Of a DNA stretch of 64,000 bases, positions 15,234-22,830 are shown one piece after another. This DNA comes from Acidobacteriota bacterium (lineage in GTDB: Bacteria > Acidobacteriota > Terriglobia > Bryobacterales > Bryobacteraceae), in NCBI GenBank assembly GCA_017307505.1, contig JAFKEE010000018.1, positions 122,737 to 186,736 of the forward strand. The letters run 5' to 3'. Every line of letters starts with the position of its first letter. The first letter of the stretch is position 1. Under the pieces are notes generated by a model. It did no database searches, was not told the DNA's origin, and saw nothing but the letters and a program-made list of their open reading frames with translations. Position numbers and translations under genes: made by a program.

Positions 15234-15851
15234 CTAGCGGGTATCCCTGTGTCTTAACGCGTGCGCACCAAGTTCGTCGAAGTCGATCCGGTCCGCGATG
15301 AGTTGGGCGCCGGTAAGGGAACGTTTCGAGACGCCTTCTTTCGTGTGTCCCTTCGTGTTCCCGGCAATGTGATAGATCTCATGGGCCAGCACGCGAGCCA
15401 TGGCGCGGCCCATGAGGGCATTGCCCCGGGCGATCTGCCCGCCGTGCATTGCGCTACGGGCTGCCACTCGGACTTTATCGCAGAGCACCTCGCTGAACGG
15501 CAGGACCTCGCCGTCGGTGGTATGCGTGAAGGCCAGCGGACCGCGTTCGTCCAGCAGCACGGGTTCCGTCTGCATCCGGCAGTTGCCGCGGAACTTGACC
15601 AGGACCAGGTCCGAGACCTCAGTGCCTTCCTTCATCTCCTCCCGCAGGCGCCACTCGACCTGAATCGAGGACTTCTGGAGTAGAGCGTTCAACTCACGGC
15701 GCATCTCCACAAGAGACTCCGCCGGGGGTTGGTTTTCATACTGTACTACCAGGGTAAGCGGAGCATTGAGAGACGGGAGGCCTTCGAAGCCCCAGGCGAG
15801 GCTCGTCGACAAAGCGACGGTAATGAGGCAAAACGCATTCAGGAAGCGCAC
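15234..15851 (-). CDS. Secreted HExxH zinc-protease-like protein, function unknown
   Basis: 205 aa from the GTG at 15851, preferred over the GTG at 15875 because AGAAGG lies seven bases upstream and a clean signal peptide follows (MRFLNAFCLITVALSTSLAWG). The body is mixed alpha/beta with VVQYENQPPAESL near the start. Near residue 155 AHEIYHIAGNTKGH gives HExxH plus a third His six residues later, resembling metzincin-type zinc sites but without the usual Gly spacing. Probably a periplasmic metallopeptidase or a remnant of one. It is on the opposite strand to its SulP neighbour. Confidence 0.65.
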   Translation of the reverse strand: MRFLNAFCLITVALSTSLAWGFEGLPSLNAPLTLVVQYENQPPAESLVEMRRELNALLQKSSIQVEWRLREEMKEGTEVSDLVLVKFRGNCRMQTEPVLLDERGPLAFTHTTDGEVLPFSEVLCDKVRVAARSAMHGGQIARGNALMGRAMARVLAHEIYHIAGNTKGHTKEGVSKRSLTGAQLIADRIDFDELGAHALRHRDTR

Positions 15852-16081
15852 AGGGCAACCTTCTGGGCCGGCCACCTCTGGGGAGCCGGTCCATCTACAG
15901 TATATTCAAGATTCCGAAGGGCGCAAGCGGCCGATCCGGACTTTTTACTCTGATATCGAATGACGGGGAGCAGGACTTTAGAGCCAAGGCTGCCGTGCAG
16001 TCCAATTTATACCTCGCCTTGGGCTGGATTCTAGCTCTCTCTAATGCGTTGATAATAAACAGATTGCGGTTGGGCCTCGGA

Positions 16082-17506
16082 CTACCAGAGGGCTAACAGT
16101 TTCCACCAGCCGAAACCGACGGTGCCCCACACCACCAGGTGGCAGAGAGAGATCACAAAACCGATACGCCACCAATCTTTCATCGAAACGTAGCCATGCG
16201 CGAAGAACATCGGAGCTGGAGTCGTGCCATAGTTCGTCAAACCGGCGCTGAGGTTGAGGAAGCAGGCCAGGCTGAATACCACCAGTCCGAGCGGGGCCCC
16301 GCTGTGGGCCAACAGGACGAGGAAGGGTGCATACATGGCCAGCATGTGGGCGGTGATACTGGCGAAGAAGTAGTGGGAGTAGTAGAAGATCAGCACTGCG
16401 ATGATGAGCAGCGCGAGCCAGTGCAGCCCTTCAAACCGGGCTCCTACTGCTTTGGCGAAGGTCTCAGTAACTCCGTTTTCGTTCAGCGCCTTGCCCAGCC
16501 GCAGCAGGCCGCCGTACCAGAGGAAGATGTCCCAGGCCGCGTGTTCGCTGATGATGTGCTCCCATTGGAGGACTCCGGTGACCAGCAGAACCATGCTGCC
16601 CAGGAGCGCGGCGACAGTTATGTCGATCCCGGTCCAACTGGACGAGACCCAGGCTCCACAGACTCCGGCAAAGACCAGGGACAGGAGCTTCTCTTTGGGA
16701 GAGAGCGGGCCCATCTTCTCCAGTTCCGCGCGAGCAAACTCGGCGGCTTCCGGCGTGCGCCGGACCTCCGGCGGGAACAGCTTCAGGACCACCCAGGGGA
16801 CGAGCGCCAGGGAAACCAGTCCAGGGACGATGCCAGCGACGAGCCAACCGCCCCACGTGACACGGTATCCCAGGTTTCCGGCCATCTGAGCAGCCAGCGG
16901 GTTGCTCGCCTGGCCGGTATAAAACATCGCGGCTGTAACGCAGATTGCCTGGTAGACGCTGGCCATCAGAAAGGCGCCCACACGATTGGCGGTGACGCCT
17001 GGGGTGGAGCCATAGAGCTCCGCGATCGACCGGACAATGGGCAGGATCACGCCGCCGGAGCGCGCTCCGTTGGAGGGGATGATTGTCGCCAGCACCATGT
17101 CGGACAGAGATAAGGCGTAGGAGACCCCCAGCGTGCTCTGTCCGAAGAGGCGGACGAAGCCGAGAGCGATGCGGCGGGCGAGGCCTGTGTTGATGAGCGC
17201 GCGCGAAATGAAGAAGGCTGCCTGGACGAGCCAGACGGTGGAGTCGGCATAGCCGCCCAGCGCGTCGGAGAGCTTCATCGTGGTCAGCAGCGGAGTGAGG
17301 GTGATGGCCAGCAGGACGAGGCCGCCTCCGGGAATTGGCCGTATGATCAGGCCGGCGACGGTGGCGAAAAAGAGGCCCGTCAGGTGCCAGGCCGAATGGG
17401 TGAGGTTCGACGGGCGGGGCAGGAGTTCGGTGAAGACGAGATAAATGGCGATGAGAACCGCGAAGCCCAACACCGTGTGGCGCCAGTTGCGATCGGGTGC
17501 CGGCAC
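16082..17506 (-). CDS. DASS/SLC13-family anion transporter (dicarboxylate/citrate type)
   Basis: 474 aa with about 12 membrane segments. LSDALGGYADSTVWLVQAAFFISRAL and MVLATIIPSNGARSGGVILP contain the SNT-like sodium/substrate loop of the CitT/YflS branch (here SNG); a second loop ends in LTNYGTTPAP. These carriers move malate, 2-oxoglutarate, citrate or tartrate. The GTG start at 17506 has GAGG five bases upstream. It lies 94 bases downstream of the DtxR-type regulator on the same strand, so co-transcription is possible; if so, a citrate/metal link would make sense, but that is inference. Confidence 0.88.
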   Translation of the reverse strand: MPAPDRNWRHTVLGFAVLIAIYLVFTELLPRPSNLTHSAWHLTGLFFATVAGLIIRPIPGGGLVLLAITLTPLLTTMKLSDALGGYADSTVWLVQAAFFISRALINTGLARRIALGFVRLFGQSTLGVSYALSLSDMVLATIIPSNGARSGGVILPIVRSIAELYGSTPGVTANRVGAFLMASVYQAICVTAAMFYTGQASNPLAAQMAGNLGYRVTWGGWLVAGIVPGLVSLALVPWVVLKLFPPEVRRTPEAAEFARAELEKMGPLSPKEKLLSLVFAGVCGAWVSSSWTGIDITVAALLGSMVLLVTGVLQWEHIISEHAAWDIFLWYGGLLRLGKALNENGVTETFAKAVGARFEGLHWLALLIIAVLIFYYSHYFFASITAHMLAMYAPFLVLLAHSGAPLGLVVFSLACFLNLSAGLTNYGTTPAPMFFAHGYVSMKDWWRIGFVISLCHLVVWGTVGFGWWKLLALW

Positions 17507-17600
17507 TAGACCTCACTCCGCGTGGTGATCGCAGCGGCGGAGGGTCGGACGTGCCTGAGAGGCCGTGGCATAGATCACAGTATATGCAGTTTCCGGATGG

Positions 17601-18290
17601 CTACTGGCTGACGTAGATCGCGCTGGAGAGGCGGACGGTGAGGGGAATGTCCTGGCTGGCCGGACCGATGCGGACCCGCATGGGACGGCTGCCGGCGCGG
17701 CGTTCGGTCACTGTGAGATGGGCGCGGGGCACAATGCCCAGATTCTTGAGTTCCCGCAGGACGTCGGGCCGGCGGTCGGAGACACTGGTTACTACGCCCG
17801 TGTTGCCGGCGGCCAGCTCAGACAGGCAGACTTCGCGGCGTTCGGGCAGGCTGCCGTCCTTGCGGGGAATGCCGTGGCCGTGCGGATCGATGAGCGGGTC
17901 GCCAAGCTTGGCTGCGATTCGTTCTTCCATGCGTTCCGAAATGAAGTGTTCCAGGCGTTCGGCCTCGGCGTGAACCTCATCCCAGGGGTAGTCGAGGATG
18001 TCGTGCAGGAAGAGTTCAATCAGGCGGTGGTGGCGAATGACCTCCAGCGCCCTACGTTTGCCGGCGGGCGTCAGACGGGCGCCGCGGTGCTTTTCGTACT
18101 CGACGAGCGGCGTTTCCTGGCCCGAGAGCTTCTGGAGCATGCCGGTGATCGAGGCCGGTCGTACCTGCAGGTGCTCCGCCAGGGCGTTGCCGGTGACGCG
18201 GTCTTCCTGCGGTCCGCCGATGGTAAGGATGGCTTTCAGGTAATCGTCGGTCGATTCGCTGTTCGCGCGGGTCGTGCTCTTCTTTGCCAC
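17601..18290 (-). CDS. DtxR/MntR-family metal-dependent transcriptional regulator
   Basis: 229 aa. Residues 14-75 form the winged helix (STDDYLKAILTI, VRPASITGMLQKL as recognition helix, VEYEKHRGARLTPAGKR). Residues 76-140 are the dimerisation and metal-binding domain (RHHRLIELFLHDILDYPWDEVHAEAERLEH with conserved His/Glu ligands). The C-terminal part is a FeoA/SH3-like domain. These repressors bind DNA when loaded with Fe(II) or Mn(II). The GTG start faces the TonB receptor at 18471, whose promoter holds a matching palindrome. Confidence 0.92.
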   Translation of the reverse strand: MAKKSTTRANSESTDDYLKAILTIGGPQEDRVTGNALAEHLQVRPASITGMLQKLSGQETPLVEYEKHRGARLTPAGKRRALEVIRHHRLIELFLHDILDYPWDEVHAEAERLEHFISERMEERIAAKLGDPLIDPHGHGIPRKDGSLPERREVCLSELAAGNTGVVTSVSDRRPDVLRELKNLGIVPRAHLTVTERRAGSRPMRVRIGPASQDIPLTVRLSSAIYVSQ

Positions 18291-18292
18291 TC

Positions 18293-18305
18293 AACCTAAA
18301 CCTAG
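18293..18305. promoter_or_regulatory. Tandem ACCTAA/ACCTAG half-sites next to the regulator start
   Basis: AACCTAAACCTAG holds two direct copies of the same half-site found in the palindrome at 18424-18443, immediately upstream of the regulator GTG. It could serve autoregulation. Its complement also supplies AGG runs that might act as Shine-Dalgarno, so the resemblance may be chance. Confidence 0.25.
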
Positions 18306-18392
18306 CCCATGCTGCCGGAGAGCCGCAACCTGTCCGATGACAGAGGAAAAGTGACCGTTCCCGGGCGGAATTGGCCCGAATGCGGGAAGTGC

Positions 18393-18421
18393 TTGCTAAA
18401 CCGGCCCAGTCCGCTTAGAAT
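18393..18421 (+). promoter_or_regulatory. Sigma-70-like promoter of the second TonB receptor
   Basis: TTGCTA (18393-18398), a 17-base spacer and TAGAAT (18416-18421) match the -35/-10 consensus at 4/6 and 5/6. The expected start of transcription, near 18428, falls inside the adjoining palindrome, so a bound repressor would block it. Confidence 0.6.
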
Positions 18422-18423
18422 GC

Positions 18424-18443
18424 AATTTAGGCACACCTAAATT
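18424..18443. promoter_or_regulatory. DtxR/MntR-like operator palindrome
   Basis: Perfect 8-bp inverted repeat AATTTAGG-CACA-CCTAAATT. The TTAGG/CCTAA core matches known binding sites of the DtxR/IdeR/MntR family. It overlaps the predicted transcription start of the receptor gene, and the divergent gene encodes a regulator of that family. Confidence 0.7.
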
Positions 18444-18470
18444 CTGGGGACGGGGACAACTGAACACTGC

Positions 18471-20873
18471 ATGCGCCACCACTTTCGCTGGTTCTGGCCG
18501 ATCTATTTCTGTGTCTGTTCGTGCGCCTTTGGGCAGAGCACCGCTTCCGTGGCGGGGACGGTGCACGACCAGACAGGGGCGCCTGTCTCCGGAGCGCACG
18601 TGGTTGTGAAGAGCCCCTTGACGAATTTCGAGCGAAGCTCCGTGTCCGACGCGGACGGCGCATTCCAGCTCACGAATATCCCGGCCAGGAACTACGAAGT
18701 GAGTGTCCAGGCGCCCGGATTCCGGCCCTTTGAGACGACGGTCATGCTGGCCGCGCGTCTCACCGCGGAACTGCAGGTGAAGCTCGAACTGGCGGCGAAC
18801 GAAACGCATGTCAGCGTGACGGCGAATGACCGGGCACTGCTCGTGAATGCGGAAGAGACGGGGACGCGCGCTCAGTTGAGCGAGACCGACATCGGCAAGA
18901 TGGCCCTCCAGGTGGGCAATCGAGGACTGGAGGCCGTGGTCGTCAGCTTCCCCGGGTTCGCGCAAAACGCCAATGGAGCCATCCATCCGCGGGGCGCGCA
19001 CAACCAGATGTCATTCATCATTGACGGCATGCCGATCACGGATCAGCTTACCGGTGCGTTTGCCAATTCCGTGGATCCTAACATTGTCCAAAACGTGGAG
19101 CTGTTCACAGGAAATATCCCGGCGGAGTTCGGGAATAAAGTTTCGGCCGTGGTGAATGTGACGAGCAAGACCGGCCTGGGCACGGGCCGGTTGCTGGGCG
19201 GATCGATCGCGGTGAGCGGAGCCGGGTTCGACACATTGTCCCAGGTGACTCAGGTGGCCGGAGAGAAGGGGAGACTCGGGTTCACGTTTTCGCTGAACAC
19301 GATGAAGTCCAATCGCTACCTGGACCAGGTCTCCCTCGACAACCTGCACAACGGCGGCAATTCGCAGCGGGCATTCTCGAGACTGGACTACCAGGCCGGC
19401 GCGCACGATGTACTGCGGTTGAACATGCTGGCCGGGCGGTCGTCCTTCGAACTGGCTAACCTGCGCTCCCAGCAGGCGCGAGGGATGGACGAGCGCCAGG
19501 AACTGCGGGATATTTCCGCCGCTCTCGGGTGGGTGCATACGTTCAACGCGAATACGCTGTGGAGCAGCAACTCCTCCTACCGGACGACGGTGGCTCAACT
19601 GTTCCCCAGTGCCGTCGACTTTCCGGTGACGGCGGCGCAGGCCCGGCATCTCTCGACGGTGTCTCTTCTCAATCAGTTGAGCATTGTGCGCGGGCGGCAC
19701 AATATCCGCTTCGGCGCCGACGTTCAGCATTTCCCGGTGAGTGAGAATTTCTCGTTCGGCATTACGGACCCGCTGTTCAACGCGCCTGAATCGACGGCCT
19801 ATTTACCTAATCTGCTGGCCTTCGACCTGAGCCGCGGCGGCCGGTTATTCCAGTTCTCCAAGCGCGCCTCGGGGTCGCTCTACTCCAGTTACCTGCAGGA
19901 TGAGATCAACCTGGGCGACCTGCATGTCTCAGTCGGGCTCCGCTTCGACAATTACCGGTTCCTGGTGCATGGCAGCCAGTTCCAGCCCCGGCTCGGAATC
20001 TCCTACAACATCCGCCGGACCGGGACGGTGTTGCGGGCATCCTACAACCGGCTGTACCATACGCCGCCCAACGAGAATCTACTCATCTCGAACTCCAATG
20101 AATCGAGCGTGCTGGTGGCGCCCGACATCCGCGAGACAGTTGGGAGTGCCGTGGTGCTGATCCGGCCGGAGCGGCAGAACCTCTACGAAATGGGGCTGCA
20201 GCAAGCGGTGGGGCGGCGGGTCAGCCTGAACGCGTCGTTCTATCACAAGGACGCGAAAGACCAGCAGGACAACAACAGCTTCTTCAATACGCCCATCATC
20301 TTTCCGATGCAGTTGAAGTCGATCCGAGTGAACTCGGTGGAAGGCCGCATGGTGCTGACTCCCGTGAATGGGTTTTCGGGATCGGTGAGTGTGACTCATG
20401 CCCGGGCGATCTCCACGCCACCGTTCACGGGCGGACTCTACATTGGCAACGGCGACGTCGCACTGCTGAACTCAGGGCCCTTCGTAATCGATCACGACCA
20501 GGTGCTGAGCCTGCAGACGATTTTGAACTACACCAGCAGGAAGGGCTTCTACGCGACCTGCTCAATGCGCTATGACAGCGGTCTGGTGACGGCGGCCGCG
20601 GATCCGGTGCAAGTGGCGAGCGATCCTGACTACGCCGACCTGCTGCCGCTGGTGAACCTGGCCTCGGCTCCGCCCCGCACCAGGCCGCGCGCCGTGACAG
20701 ACCTGGTGCTGGGCTACCAGCGTCTGCGCGGAGAGAAACGGCAGTGGGAGGCCTCTGTGCAGATTTCAAACCTCACGAACGAGCGCGCGCTGTACAACTT
20801 CCAATCCGCTTTCGTGGGCACACGCCTGGTGCAACCGCGGACAACGGGCGTCCGGCTTTCCTGGTTCTTCTGA
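18471..20873 (+). CDS. TonB-dependent receptor, probably metal-regulated
   Basis: 800 aa. Signal peptide ends near CSCAFGQS (about 22). A carboxypeptidase-regulatory-like domain (28-105: VAGTVHDQTGAPVSGAHVVV ... FQLTNIPARNYEVSV) precedes the plug (MSFIIDGMPITDQLTG, VELFTGNIPAEFGNK) and a barrel ending in TGVRLSWFF. It is shorter than the Oar-like receptor at 9225. The promoter, the DtxR-like palindrome and the divergent DtxR-type gene suggest it is repressed by iron or manganese, so the cargo may be a metal chelate. No FecR or sigma-factor partner is seen. Confidence 0.9.
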   Translation: MRHHFRWFWPIYFCVCSCAFGQSTASVAGTVHDQTGAPVSGAHVVVKSPLTNFERSSVSDADGAFQLTNIPARNYEVSVQAPGFRPFETTVMLAARLTAELQVKLELAANETHVSVTANDRALLVNAEETGTRAQLSETDIGKMALQVGNRGLEAVVVSFPGFAQNANGAIHPRGAHNQMSFIIDGMPITDQLTGAFANSVDPNIVQNVELFTGNIPAEFGNKVSAVVNVTSKTGLGTGRLLGGSIAVSGAGFDTLSQVTQVAGEKGRLGFTFSLNTMKSNRYLDQVSLDNLHNGGNSQRAFSRLDYQAGAHDVLRLNMLAGRSSFELANLRSQQARGMDERQELRDISAALGWVHTFNANTLWSSNSSYRTTVAQLFPSAVDFPVTAAQARHLSTVSLLNQLSIVRGRHNIRFGADVQHFPVSENFSFGITDPLFNAPESTAYLPNLLAFDLSRGGRLFQFSKRASGSLYSSYLQDEINLGDLHVSVGLRFDNYRFLVHGSQFQPRLGISYNIRRTGTVLRASYNRLYHTPPNENLLISNSNESSVLVAPDIRETVGSAVVLIRPERQNLYEMGLQQAVGRRVSLNASFYHKDAKDQQDNNSFFNTPIIFPMQLKSIRVNSVEGRMVLTPVNGFSGSVSVTHARAISTPPFTGGLYIGNGDVALLNSGPFVIDHDQVLSLQTILNYTSRKGFYATCSMRYDSGLVTAAADPVQVASDPDYADLLPLVNLASAPPRTRPRAVTDLVLGYQRLRGEKRQWEASVQISNLTNERALYNFQSAFVGTRLVQPRTTGVRLSWFF

Positions 20874-20893
20874 CAGACGGGCCCGTTTCCATG

Positions 20894-20899
20894 TATGTA
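20894..20899 (+). promoter_or_regulatory. Possible -10 box of a leaderless kinase message
   Basis: TATGTA ends six bases before the GTG at 20906. The in-frame codon two before the GTG is TAA, so no earlier start exists, and the only purine run (AAAGG) touches the start codon and cannot act as a normal Shine-Dalgarno. Confidence 0.3.
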
Positions 20900-20905
20900 T
20901 AAAGG

Positions 20906-21886
20906 GTGAATCCGCTCCGCTTACTGGCGCTGGCCGATGACCTGACGGGCGCACTGGAAGCAGGCGCGCGTTTCCGTGATTCCGTCGTTCTGCTGAAGCC
21001 GCGACCGGACCGGCCGGAGAGTGTGATCGTGATGGACACGGAGTCCCGCCATCTGGCACCCGACGTGGCCGCATTCCGGCTGCTGGGCGCCATGGAGAAT
21101 GTGGTCTCCGACATCGTCTACAAAAAGACCGATTCCACATTACGCGGCAACATTGGGGCGGAGTTCAAAGCGCTGCTTGGAGCCTACCCCGAGTCCACGA
21201 TCTGTTATGTGCCCGCCTACCCGGAGCTTGGGCGAACCGTCCGCGGCGGCGTACTGCTGGTGGACGGTGTCCCTGTTCACCAGACCAGCTTTGCCCGGGA
21301 TCCGTTGAACCCAGTAACTGAAAGCCACATAAGCAGGGTGCTGGCTGCGCAGGGCTGCGATCTGGAGCGGGTGCGGATTTTCGATGGGGAGACGCCCGAG
21401 GATGTTCAAGCGGCGGCCGCGGAGGCGTTGTCAGGGCCTCGACCGGTCGTGATGGCAGGGCCCGCGGCGTTGGCTGGAGCGCTCGCACAGGCTCTGAGCA
21501 TAGTGCGGGCCGCGCCTACGAAGTGGCCGGAAGTTTCCGACTGTGTCGTGATTAACGGCAGCGCACACCCCGCGTCCGCGGCCCAGGTCCAGATGGCCCT
21601 GGCCAAAGGAATCCCGTGGGCCTTTGACCGGGTGGCGGGCGCACACGACACCTTCATTATTTTTGGCGGCGATACGGCGCGCGGGGTCCTGCATCGGCTG
21701 GACGATCCGTTGCTGTTCCCTCTGGGCGAAGTGCTGCCGGGCGTTCCGGTCTCGCTGTTTGAACATGAGGGGCGGAAGCGGGTGCTTGTCAGCAAAGCCG
21801 GCGGTTACGGCGCGCCGGATCTGCTGCTGCGGTTGTACGAACGGCTCTGCCAGACTGAAAAGGAATCATGGAACTGCTCGGCATAA
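20906..21886 (+). CDS. Four-carbon acid sugar kinase family protein (DUF1537, OtnK/DtnK-like)
   Basis: 326 aa. The N-terminal sugar-binding domain opens with LALADDLTGALEAGARF and contains YKKTDSTLRGNIGAE. The C-terminal nucleotide-binding domain has FGGDTARGVL, LGEVLPGVP and LVSKAGGYG. Typical members are about 410-430 aa; the shortening lies in the middle, between the domains, so the fold may still be complete. Members phosphorylate D-erythronate, D-threonate or related acids. The last 19 bases overlap the PdxA-type dehydrogenase, the usual partner that oxidises the 4-phosphate. Confidence 0.85.
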   Translation: MNPLRLLALADDLTGALEAGARFRDSVVLLKPRPDRPESVIVMDTESRHLAPDVAAFRLLGAMENVVSDIVYKKTDSTLRGNIGAEFKALLGAYPESTICYVPAYPELGRTVRGGVLLVDGVPVHQTSFARDPLNPVTESHISRVLAAQGCDLERVRIFDGETPEDVQAAAAEALSGPRPVVMAGPAALAGALAQALSIVRAAPTKWPEVSDCVVINGSAHPASAAQVQMALAKGIPWAFDRVAGAHDTFIIFGGDTARGVLHRLDDPLLFPLGEVLPGVPVSLFEHEGRKRVLVSKAGGYGAPDLLLRLYERLCQTEKESWNCSA

Positions 21887-22830
21887 CCATGGGCGACTCC
21901 AGCGGAGTCGGCCCGGAGATCCTCCTGAATGCCTTTCAGCGAGGGGAGATCACGTGCCCGTTCGTCGCTTATGGCGACACTGCGGCGCTGGAACGCTACA
22001 ACACGCACGGAGTGGAGCTGCGTTCCATCCTGCAGCCGGACGATTACCGGCCGGGTGTCCTCAACGTGGTCAACTCGGCCCTGATGAGCGGCGCCGATGT
22101 CACGCCCGGGGTCATCAATGCGAAGTCGGGCCACGCCGCGCGGGAATATGTCATCGCCGCTACGAACGCGGCTCTGGCCGGGCAGATCGCGGCTATGGTG
22201 ACGCTGCCGATGAACAAGGAAGCGACTCAACTGACGGATCCGGGCTTCACGGGCCACACCGAGTTGATCGGCGCACTCTGCGGAGTGGAAGACGTCACGA
22301 TTATGCTGGCGTCGGACCAGTTGATTGTGACTCACGTGAGCACGCACTGTTCTTTGGCCGAGGCCATTGCGCGGGCAAAATTCGACCGGATCCGCACGAT
22401 TATCCGGATGACCAGCGAGGCAGTGCTCCGGCTGAAGCCCGGTGCGAAGATCGCTGTGGCCGGCCTGAATCCACACGCCGGGGAGAACGGGCTCTTCGGT
22501 GATGAGGAGATCCGCGAGATCCGTCCTGCCGTGGAATGGGCGCAGGCGCAGGGGATGCCTGTCGATGGGCCGTTTCCACCAGACACAGTGTTTTTTCTGG
22601 CCGTGCGCAAGAAGCGTTACGACGCAATCGTGTGCATGTACCACGACCAGGGCCATATCCCACTGAAACTGCTGGATTTCGAAGCGGGGGTGAATGTCGC
22701 CCTGGGGCTGCCGATTATCCGGACTTCCGTGGACCACGGCACAGCCTTCGACATCGCGGGGCAAGGCATCGCTTCGACGGTCAGCCTGCTGCGGGCGATC
22801 GAATTCGCGCAGCGCCTGATCAGAACTTGA
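21868..22830 (+). CDS. pdxA: 4-hydroxythreonine-4-phosphate dehydrogenase family (PdxA/PdxA2)
   Basis: 320 aa, standard length. Begins ITMGDSSGVGPEI, the family hallmark, and has MNKEA, FTGHTELIG and CMYHDQGHIPLK with the His residues that bind the divalent metal. PdxA acts in vitamin B6 synthesis, while PdxA2 dehydrogenates D-threonate or D-erythronate 4-phosphate. The overlap with a DUF1537 kinase favours the PdxA2 role, but the gene could serve both. It overlaps the convergent acyltransferase end by 11 bases. Confidence 0.88.
   Translation: MELLGITMGDSSGVGPEILLNAFQRGEITCPFVAYGDTAALERYNTHGVELRSILQPDDYRPGVLNVVNSALMSGADVTPGVINAKSGHAAREYVIAATNAALAGQIAAMVTLPMNKEATQLTDPGFTGHTELIGALCGVEDVTIMLASDQLIVTHVSTHCSLAEAIARAKFDRIRTIIRMTSEAVLRLKPGAKIAVAGLNPHAGENGLFGDEEIREIRPAVEWAQAQGMPVDGPFPPDTVFFLAVRKKRYDAIVCMYHDQGHIPLKLLDFEAGVNVALGLPIIRTSVDHGTAFDIAGQGIASTVSLLRAIEFAQRLIRT

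Follow-up and report, generated by a model that had tools for sequence, protein, structure and literature searches.

A predicted metalloregulator operator shared by a TonB-type outer-membrane receptor gene and mntH in a Bryobacteraceae genome

A 64,000-nucleotide stretch of a genome from the acidobacterial family Bryobacteraceae (contig JAFKEE010000018.1; called the window below) carries a gene for a DtxR/MntR-type regulator and, divergent from it, a gene for a TonB-type outer-membrane receptor, with a spacer of 180 bp between them. Our analysis suggests that this regulator, a putative Mn/Fe-sensing repressor, switches the receptor together with mntH through a shared box, a reading to which we give a probability of about 0.78. 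We read the receptor locus as a probable switch governing uptake of Mn(II), or of an Mn/Fe chelate, across the outer membrane. An initial annotation made from the sequence alone had joined regulator, palindrome and receptor into one switch; the results below extend it to related genomes and to mntH.

Results

The predicted operator, which we call class I, is AATTTAGG-CACA-CCTAAATT and occupies positions 18424-18443 of the spacer (AATTTAGGCACACCTAAATT in full; no strand is assigned to it). It lies 151 bp away from the regulator start, at the receptor promoter. This promoter, TTGCTA-17-TAGAAT, is on the plus strand at 18393-18421 (TTGCTA at 18393-18398 and TAGAAT at 18416-18421); it agrees with the sigma-70 pattern at 9 of 12 positions and is the sole sigma-70-like match in 18200-18600, where shuffled sequences gave a mean of 0.1. 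Both elements, the promoter with its 17-base spacer and the perfect palindrome with its CACA center, had been described in the initial annotation and were recovered between the divergent genes. Its placement of the palindrome over the expected transcription start also holds, in that a start about 7 bp past the -10 element would fall inside the palindrome. The 14-bp core TTAGGNNNNCCTAA matches once in the 64-kb window and in none of 100 dinucleotide shuffles, and the 20-bp pattern AATTTAGGNNNNCCTAAATT has a single exact place in the 9.39-Mb genome.

Conservation was followed in a genus set of nine genomes, the window's own (G000) included, and in a family set of 200 genomes. The regulator has matches in four of the nine: its own genome, two congeners with orthologues at 95% and 92% identity (G001 and G007, which with G000 form the trio referred to below; G007 is the more distant), and a fourth genome with a match of only 34%. 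Loss of the palindrome from close relatives that keep both genes had been named as an observation that would speak against the switch; the palindrome is present in 2/2 such congeners, as is the promoter, with counterparts TTGCCA/TAGAAT and TTGCAT/TAAGAT in the same columns. Between the window and G007, 15 of the 16 bases of the 16-bp core are kept, and only 42 of 79 in segment 18346-18424.

Tandem half-sites, AACCTAAACCTAG, lie at 18293-18305 beside the GTG start of the regulator, as first annotated; they have no assigned strand, make no palindrome and are identical in the two congeners. They may be a degenerate autoregulatory operator. Autoregulation is plausible because they sit where relatives with divergent loci often have a second, degenerate box over the regulator start codon, such as TTTAGTGCCACCTAGA at -4. 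As a separate observation, the 60-bp block 18286-18345 by the regulator start, which includes the half-sites, is identical in G007 at 53 of 60 positions, above the rest of the spacer except the palindrome.

Regulator orthologues (at least 50% identity) were found in 40 of the 200 family genomes, 37 of them beyond the trio at about 50 to 64%; the nearest named carriers (56 to 61%; L289-L292 and L295) are acidobacterial. A box with no more than two mismatches lies upstream (-450 to +60) of 39 of the 40, the best box having no mismatch in 18, one in 14, two in 7 and four in 1. For the orthologues beyond the trio, neighbors were read at 30 of 37 loci. At 20 of these, a different large receptor, about 1150 amino acids (aa) long where complete, is divergent from the regulator; some of these receptors are cut by contig ends or short, and Pfam was run on one. 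At the remaining loci, the regulator is followed by mntH (four loci) or by a second DtxR-type gene (four, all in one genus), a relative of the receptor lies downstream (one), or none of these neighbors is present (one). At the two loci of this last genus that were inspected (L096:1989-6084 and L098), the regulator orthologue is followed by a gene for a 352-aa protein with Fe_dep_repr_C and FeoA domains and by FeoB split into two genes; Pfam, run on G015 only, did not find a helix-turn-helix domain in that 352-aa protein, and G015 and G086 gave no mntH match at E 1e-60.

The general form of the box, TTTAGGNNNNCCTAAA, has four places at one mismatch in the window's own genome: the receptor, mntH and two others. 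The latter two seem to be chance sites, one overlapping the 3' end of an open reading frame (ORF) and the other inside one. The mntH box, TTTAGGCTAGACTAAA, carries one mismatch; it begins 24 bp ahead of the mntH start codon, leaving about 8 bp between its end and that codon, and counterparts stand at the same place in G001 and G007. The mntH product matches Nramp at 466 bits. A box of this kind before mntH of the same genome, the mark of an MntR regulon, is thus found here, and mntH and the receptor gene would belong to one regulon. Elsewhere, mntH directly follows the regulator in at least 5 of the 40 genomes with an orthologue (G173 being the fifth), and in three Acidobacteriaceae genomes (two Granulicella and KBS 89) mntH is divergent and has its start overlapped by the box, with one or two changes. 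Aside from its regulation, the mntH product continues beyond the Nramp domain, with open frames of about 614 to 624 aa in most congeners (L045:1525-3016 and relatives); we take the added stretch to resemble a universal-stress-protein domain.

The box also occurs before receptor orthologues that lie far from any regulator gene. Exact copies of TTTAGGNNNNCCTAAA have 25 places in 23 of the 200 family genomes, 18 of them beside the regulator. Of the remaining seven, those in G015 and G141 precede distant 800-aa receptor orthologues, and that in G198 precedes a prephenate dehydratase gene directly adjoining a receptor orthologue. In G189 and G086 the copy stands where another large receptor begins, in G021 it falls within an unrelated ORF, and in G032 an unrelated gene comes after it. 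When receptor upstreams were scored with a matrix built from 36 sites outside the genus, those of G000, G001, G007, G015 and G141, all from genomes with the regulator, gave 25.4 to 30.3 and the rest no more than 6.2. Box I was present at 5 of 9 receptor upstreams with the regulator in the genome versus 0 of 63 without it (Fisher p 9e-6, among relatives that share ancestry). This family scan, which the initial annotation had proposed, speaks for the association. The 72 upstreams counted omit L167, L170, L234 and L236 (fetched, with no usable start) and the partial or contig-end orthologues of G029, G106, G113, G161 and G196. On a quick tree of the 72 receptors, class I requires two separate changes, and the receptor of the trio groups with another genus rather than with its own congeners.

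A second palindrome near CTTAACTATAGTTAAG, perfect or near-perfect, precedes mntH genes and 26 of 71 receptor orthologues in the family genomes. This class II pattern is a palindrome near [CG]TTAACTATAGTTAA[CG]; examples are L210, L213, L214 (from 34 bp before mntH) and L235, among others. A second DtxR-type regulator was found in 107 of the 200 genomes. With up to three mismatches allowed, class II stands at 25 of 45 receptor upstreams in genomes with this second regulator versus 1 of 27 without it, and at 16 of 18 versus 7 of 36 mntH upstreams, the 54 mntH upstreams being sampled from 177 genomes with an mntH match. The class II box is a predicted binding site of this second regulator. Of 19 second-type regulators sampled, none had the box upstream at fewer than five mismatches, and it was not found at one mismatch in any of the nine genus genomes, including G002, which has a second-type regulator.

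The class of box at the receptor mostly agrees with that at mntH. Both upstreams were read in 42 genomes (from 71 receptors and 74 mntH genes), and the class was the same in 38: II/II in 18, none/none in 17 and I/I in 3. In the other four, mntH has box II and the receptor has neither box; there were no crossed pairs. None of 10,000 shuffles reached this agreement, the largest being 29, with the proviso that shared descent makes the 42 genomes less than independent.

The regulator (17601-18290, minus strand, GTG start at 18290) has 229 aa with helix-turn-helix, metal-binding/dimerization and FeoA/SH3-like domains. Its matches to Fe_dep_repress (PF01325, 47.3 bits), Fe_dep_repr_C (PF02742, 95.3 bits) and FeoA all exceed the Pfam cut-offs, and the closest solved chain is 8pvt (146 bits). 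Aligned with the ScaR and IdeR chains, and with a Bacillus subtilis MntR sequence, its metal-ligand positions read E111-x-x-E114-H115 and contain no Cys, as in ScaR (Glu) and not as in the aligned IdeR chain (Cys). At the position of Glu11 in the binuclear site of MntR it has Lys19, and so lacks this mark of an MntR in the narrow, Mn-selective sense. Lys19 and His107 stand where DR2539 of Deinococcus radiodurans is reported to have Lys and His98. A claim of Mn selectivity was dropped in view of this Lys in place of Glu11, shared with the dual Mn/Fe sensor DR2539.

The receptor (18471-20873, plus strand) is probably of the TonB type by Pfam and profile comparison. It has 800 aa and an N-terminal CarboxypepD_reg domain (70.7 bits); OMP_b-brl_4 (49.1 bits) is also above its cut-off, over residues 388-498 only and thus part of the model length, and Plug, at 21.9 bits, is slightly below the cut-off of 23.9. 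A profile built from 20 receptor orthologues gave a match of 135 positions (E 1.4e-5) to 6ofr, a TonB-dependent receptor of solved structure.

From left to right, 16082-22830 holds genes for a DASS carrier (minus), the regulator (minus), the receptor (plus), a kinase homologue (plus) and a PdxA-family protein (plus). The kinase homologue (20906-21886) is a short relative of four-carbon acid-sugar kinases (DtnK/DUF1537-like) with SBD_N and NBD_C domains in Pfam; it matches the D-threonate kinase model in part only (126.8 of 450 bits) and is about 100 aa shorter, and its function may be altered. It begins 32 bp after the receptor gene and is probably in the same operon. The PdxA-family gene (21868-22830; PF04166, 314.8 bits) overlaps its end. 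The kinase gene also follows the receptor in both congeners and in G002, and the PdxA gene follows the kinase in G002. In that same-genus genome, a second-type DtxR regulator, the receptor, the kinase and PdxA form one same-strand run (L139:1246-6267).

The carrier that was said to follow the regulator is a DASS-family sodium-coupled anion carrier (16082-17506, minus strand; TIGR00785 at 373 bits against a cut-off of 198.6), downstream of the regulator; in relatives that lack the regulator it is divergent from the receptor. DASS is a divergent neighbor of no fewer than 21 of 71 receptors, a lower bound, as several loci have less than 800 bp upstream; in the trio the regulator sits in between. 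In two same-genus genomes, G003 and G006, the DASS and receptor genes are separated by about 100 bp that hold no regulator. The metal-citrate circuit suggested in the initial annotation finds support in part only: DASS recurs beside the receptor, but 16 of the 21 loci are without a metal box, nothing points to citrate, and citrate as the specific partner was rejected. The receptor would have a carboxylate-type neighborhood as well as metal control, both of which appear at the window locus; as a guess, its ligand could be a metal-carboxylate complex. Farther out, a 213-aa ORF at 15234-15875, between the SulP permease and DASS genes, has no Pfam or NCBIfam match.

Discussion

The data are consistent with a model in which the regulator is an MntR resembling DR2539. 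A dimer loaded with Mn(II), and perhaps Fe(II), would occupy AATTTAGG-CACA-CCTAAATT and so block RNA polymerase where transcription from the receptor promoter is expected to begin. At low metal the regulator would leave and the receptor would be made, probably together with the products of the kinase and pdxA genes behind it. The same regulator would repress mntH via TTTAGGCTAGACTAAA, so that the outer- and inner-membrane steps of metal uptake would rise together, and autoregulation through the half-sites beside the regulator gene is a further possibility. We consider it likely that the repressor is a Mn/Fe-sensing MntR and somewhat likely that Mn, favored by the company of mntH, is the main signal.

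Some observations weigh against this model. Box I is missing within -300 to +60 at four of the nine receptor upstreams in genomes with the regulator (G086, G120, G180 and G198), and neither box is found at 40 of 71 receptor orthologues. Among 27 mntH upstreams from regulator genomes in which mntH lies apart from the regulator, box I is found in the three of the trio only, and many have the other box. Control of mntH by the regulator would thus be lineage-specific; its control of mntH in general was rejected, separate mntH genes outside the trio having the other box or none. No mntH match was found in G015 or G141, both with box I at the receptor, and the receptor-mntH pairing is therefore not visible in the second class I group. 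The NCBIfam equivalog models for MntR/DtxR all score below cut-off (NF047407, 199.2/350; NF053665, 85.3/290; NF003025, 57.1/138; NF008273, 38.8/153). For DR2539, responses to both metals are reported (PMC3327659), and the regulator may sense either. Shared ancestry means that the Fisher and shuffle values overstate independence. Finally, a reversed control pattern outnumbers the real one in the window's own genome (14 versus 4 places at one mismatch) and is present in more of the 200 family genomes than the real pattern (23 genomes); the argument is carried by position and conservation, and raw counts prove nothing.

The abundance of the reversed control is also what would speak for an inverted repeat that arose by chance, or for one that serves an unrelated factor. 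We regard this explanation as barely credible and rejected a chance palindrome, given its absence from the 100 shuffles, its retention while the flanks diverged and the 18 of 25 exact family places beside the regulator. A switch for iron deserves more attention, though we think it rather unlikely. Here the regulator would sense Fe(II), the receptor would take up a ferric chelate (siderophore or citrate), and mntH would encode a divalent-metal importer serving Fe also. The Lys/His positions shared with DR2539, which its report describes as Mn- and Fe-dependent, agree with this, as do the gene runs in G015 and G086, headed by the regulator and also holding another DtxR-type gene and FeoB in two parts (Pfam was run on G015 only). 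The receptor is also weakly similar to siderophore-receptor models, all far below cut-off. However, the ligand position lacks the Cys of the IdeR chain, the box is common to mntH, and the regulator is linked to mntH in several genomes.

The neighborhood raises a further explanation, that the cargo of the receptor is a carboxylate or four-carbon sugar acid, which DASS would carry across the inner membrane and the kinase and PdxA would catabolize, the metalloregulator being a passenger whose palindrome serves its autoregulation only. The divergent DASS genes, mostly at receptors without a metal box, and the recurrence of the kinase and PdxA behind the receptor count in its favor. We nevertheless consider it improbable, as the box lies on the receptor promoter, with 151 bp between it and the start of the regulator, recurs before receptor orthologues remote from any regulator (G015 and G141), and has a class II equivalent before 26 of 71 receptors.

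The proposed Mn/Fe switch can be set beside known systems. DtxR and IdeR of actinobacteria are iron regulators with a 19-bp tox/iron box. They share the protein family and the TTAGG half-site with the window's regulator, but the latter has Glu where the IdeR chain has Cys, and its box is shorter, with a 4-bp spacer. Closer is DR2539, a Mn/Fe-dependent DtxR/MntR-type repressor of mntH (PMC3327659). It resembles the regulator in its SH3-like domain, the Lys in place of MntR Glu11, the retained His98 and the control of mntH through an inverted repeat; the likeness is one of description, with operator letters and protein identity outside the comparison. Unlike what is described for DR2539, the predicted regulon also includes an outer-membrane receptor.

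MntR boxes before a TonB-dependent receptor have already been proposed in Stenotrophomonas maltophilia, for a different type of receptor. In its TBDR-pTFP locus, an MntR box precedes mntH and a TonB-dependent receptor near the regulator (PMC13217887), as predicted for the window's genome. The S. maltophilia receptor carries CQNC in its plug and is partnered by a thioredoxin-fold protein, and the box is 25 bp long, versus 16 to 20 bp in the window; no CQNC motif is present in the 800-aa receptor translation, and the receptor's neighbors matched other families. MnoT of Burkholderia thailandensis, a TonB-dependent Mn transporter (as cited in PMC13217887), is likened by description only to the proposed Mn uptake across the outer membrane; it works with the secreted Mn-binding protein TseM. 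A Granulicella study gives ORFs 44 to 60% identical to mntR in the results, while its discussion finds no common mntR and supposes another regulator (PMC7315648). Six box strings had no match in literature text. Among the matches listed, the Stenotrophomonas work was the sole close one for MntR/DtxR with TonB receptors, and none gave an account of this receptor family, the boxes or the class change, subscription literature being mostly outside reach.

More tentatively, and at less than even odds, the receptor family may be the outer-membrane partner of Mn uptake across the acidobacterial family, rewired between two DtxR-type regulators with TTTAGGNNNNCCTAAA and TTAACYATAGTTAA operators. The class I box would have come up two or more times on the receptor tree, and the rewiring would have kept pace with mntH, as the match in 38 of the 42 genomes with both upstreams read suggests. 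Given the DASS and four-carbon acid genes, the receptor may import a complex of Mn with a small carboxylic acid. In the literature examined, the named outer-membrane Mn receptors are few (MnoT and the Stenotrophomonas candidate), and descriptions of Mn control in acidobacteria are scarce. With one receptor family, a defined regulator and two defined boxes, the question becomes open to testing, and the matched operator class at mntH and the receptor, if true, would be a clean case of regulatory rewiring.

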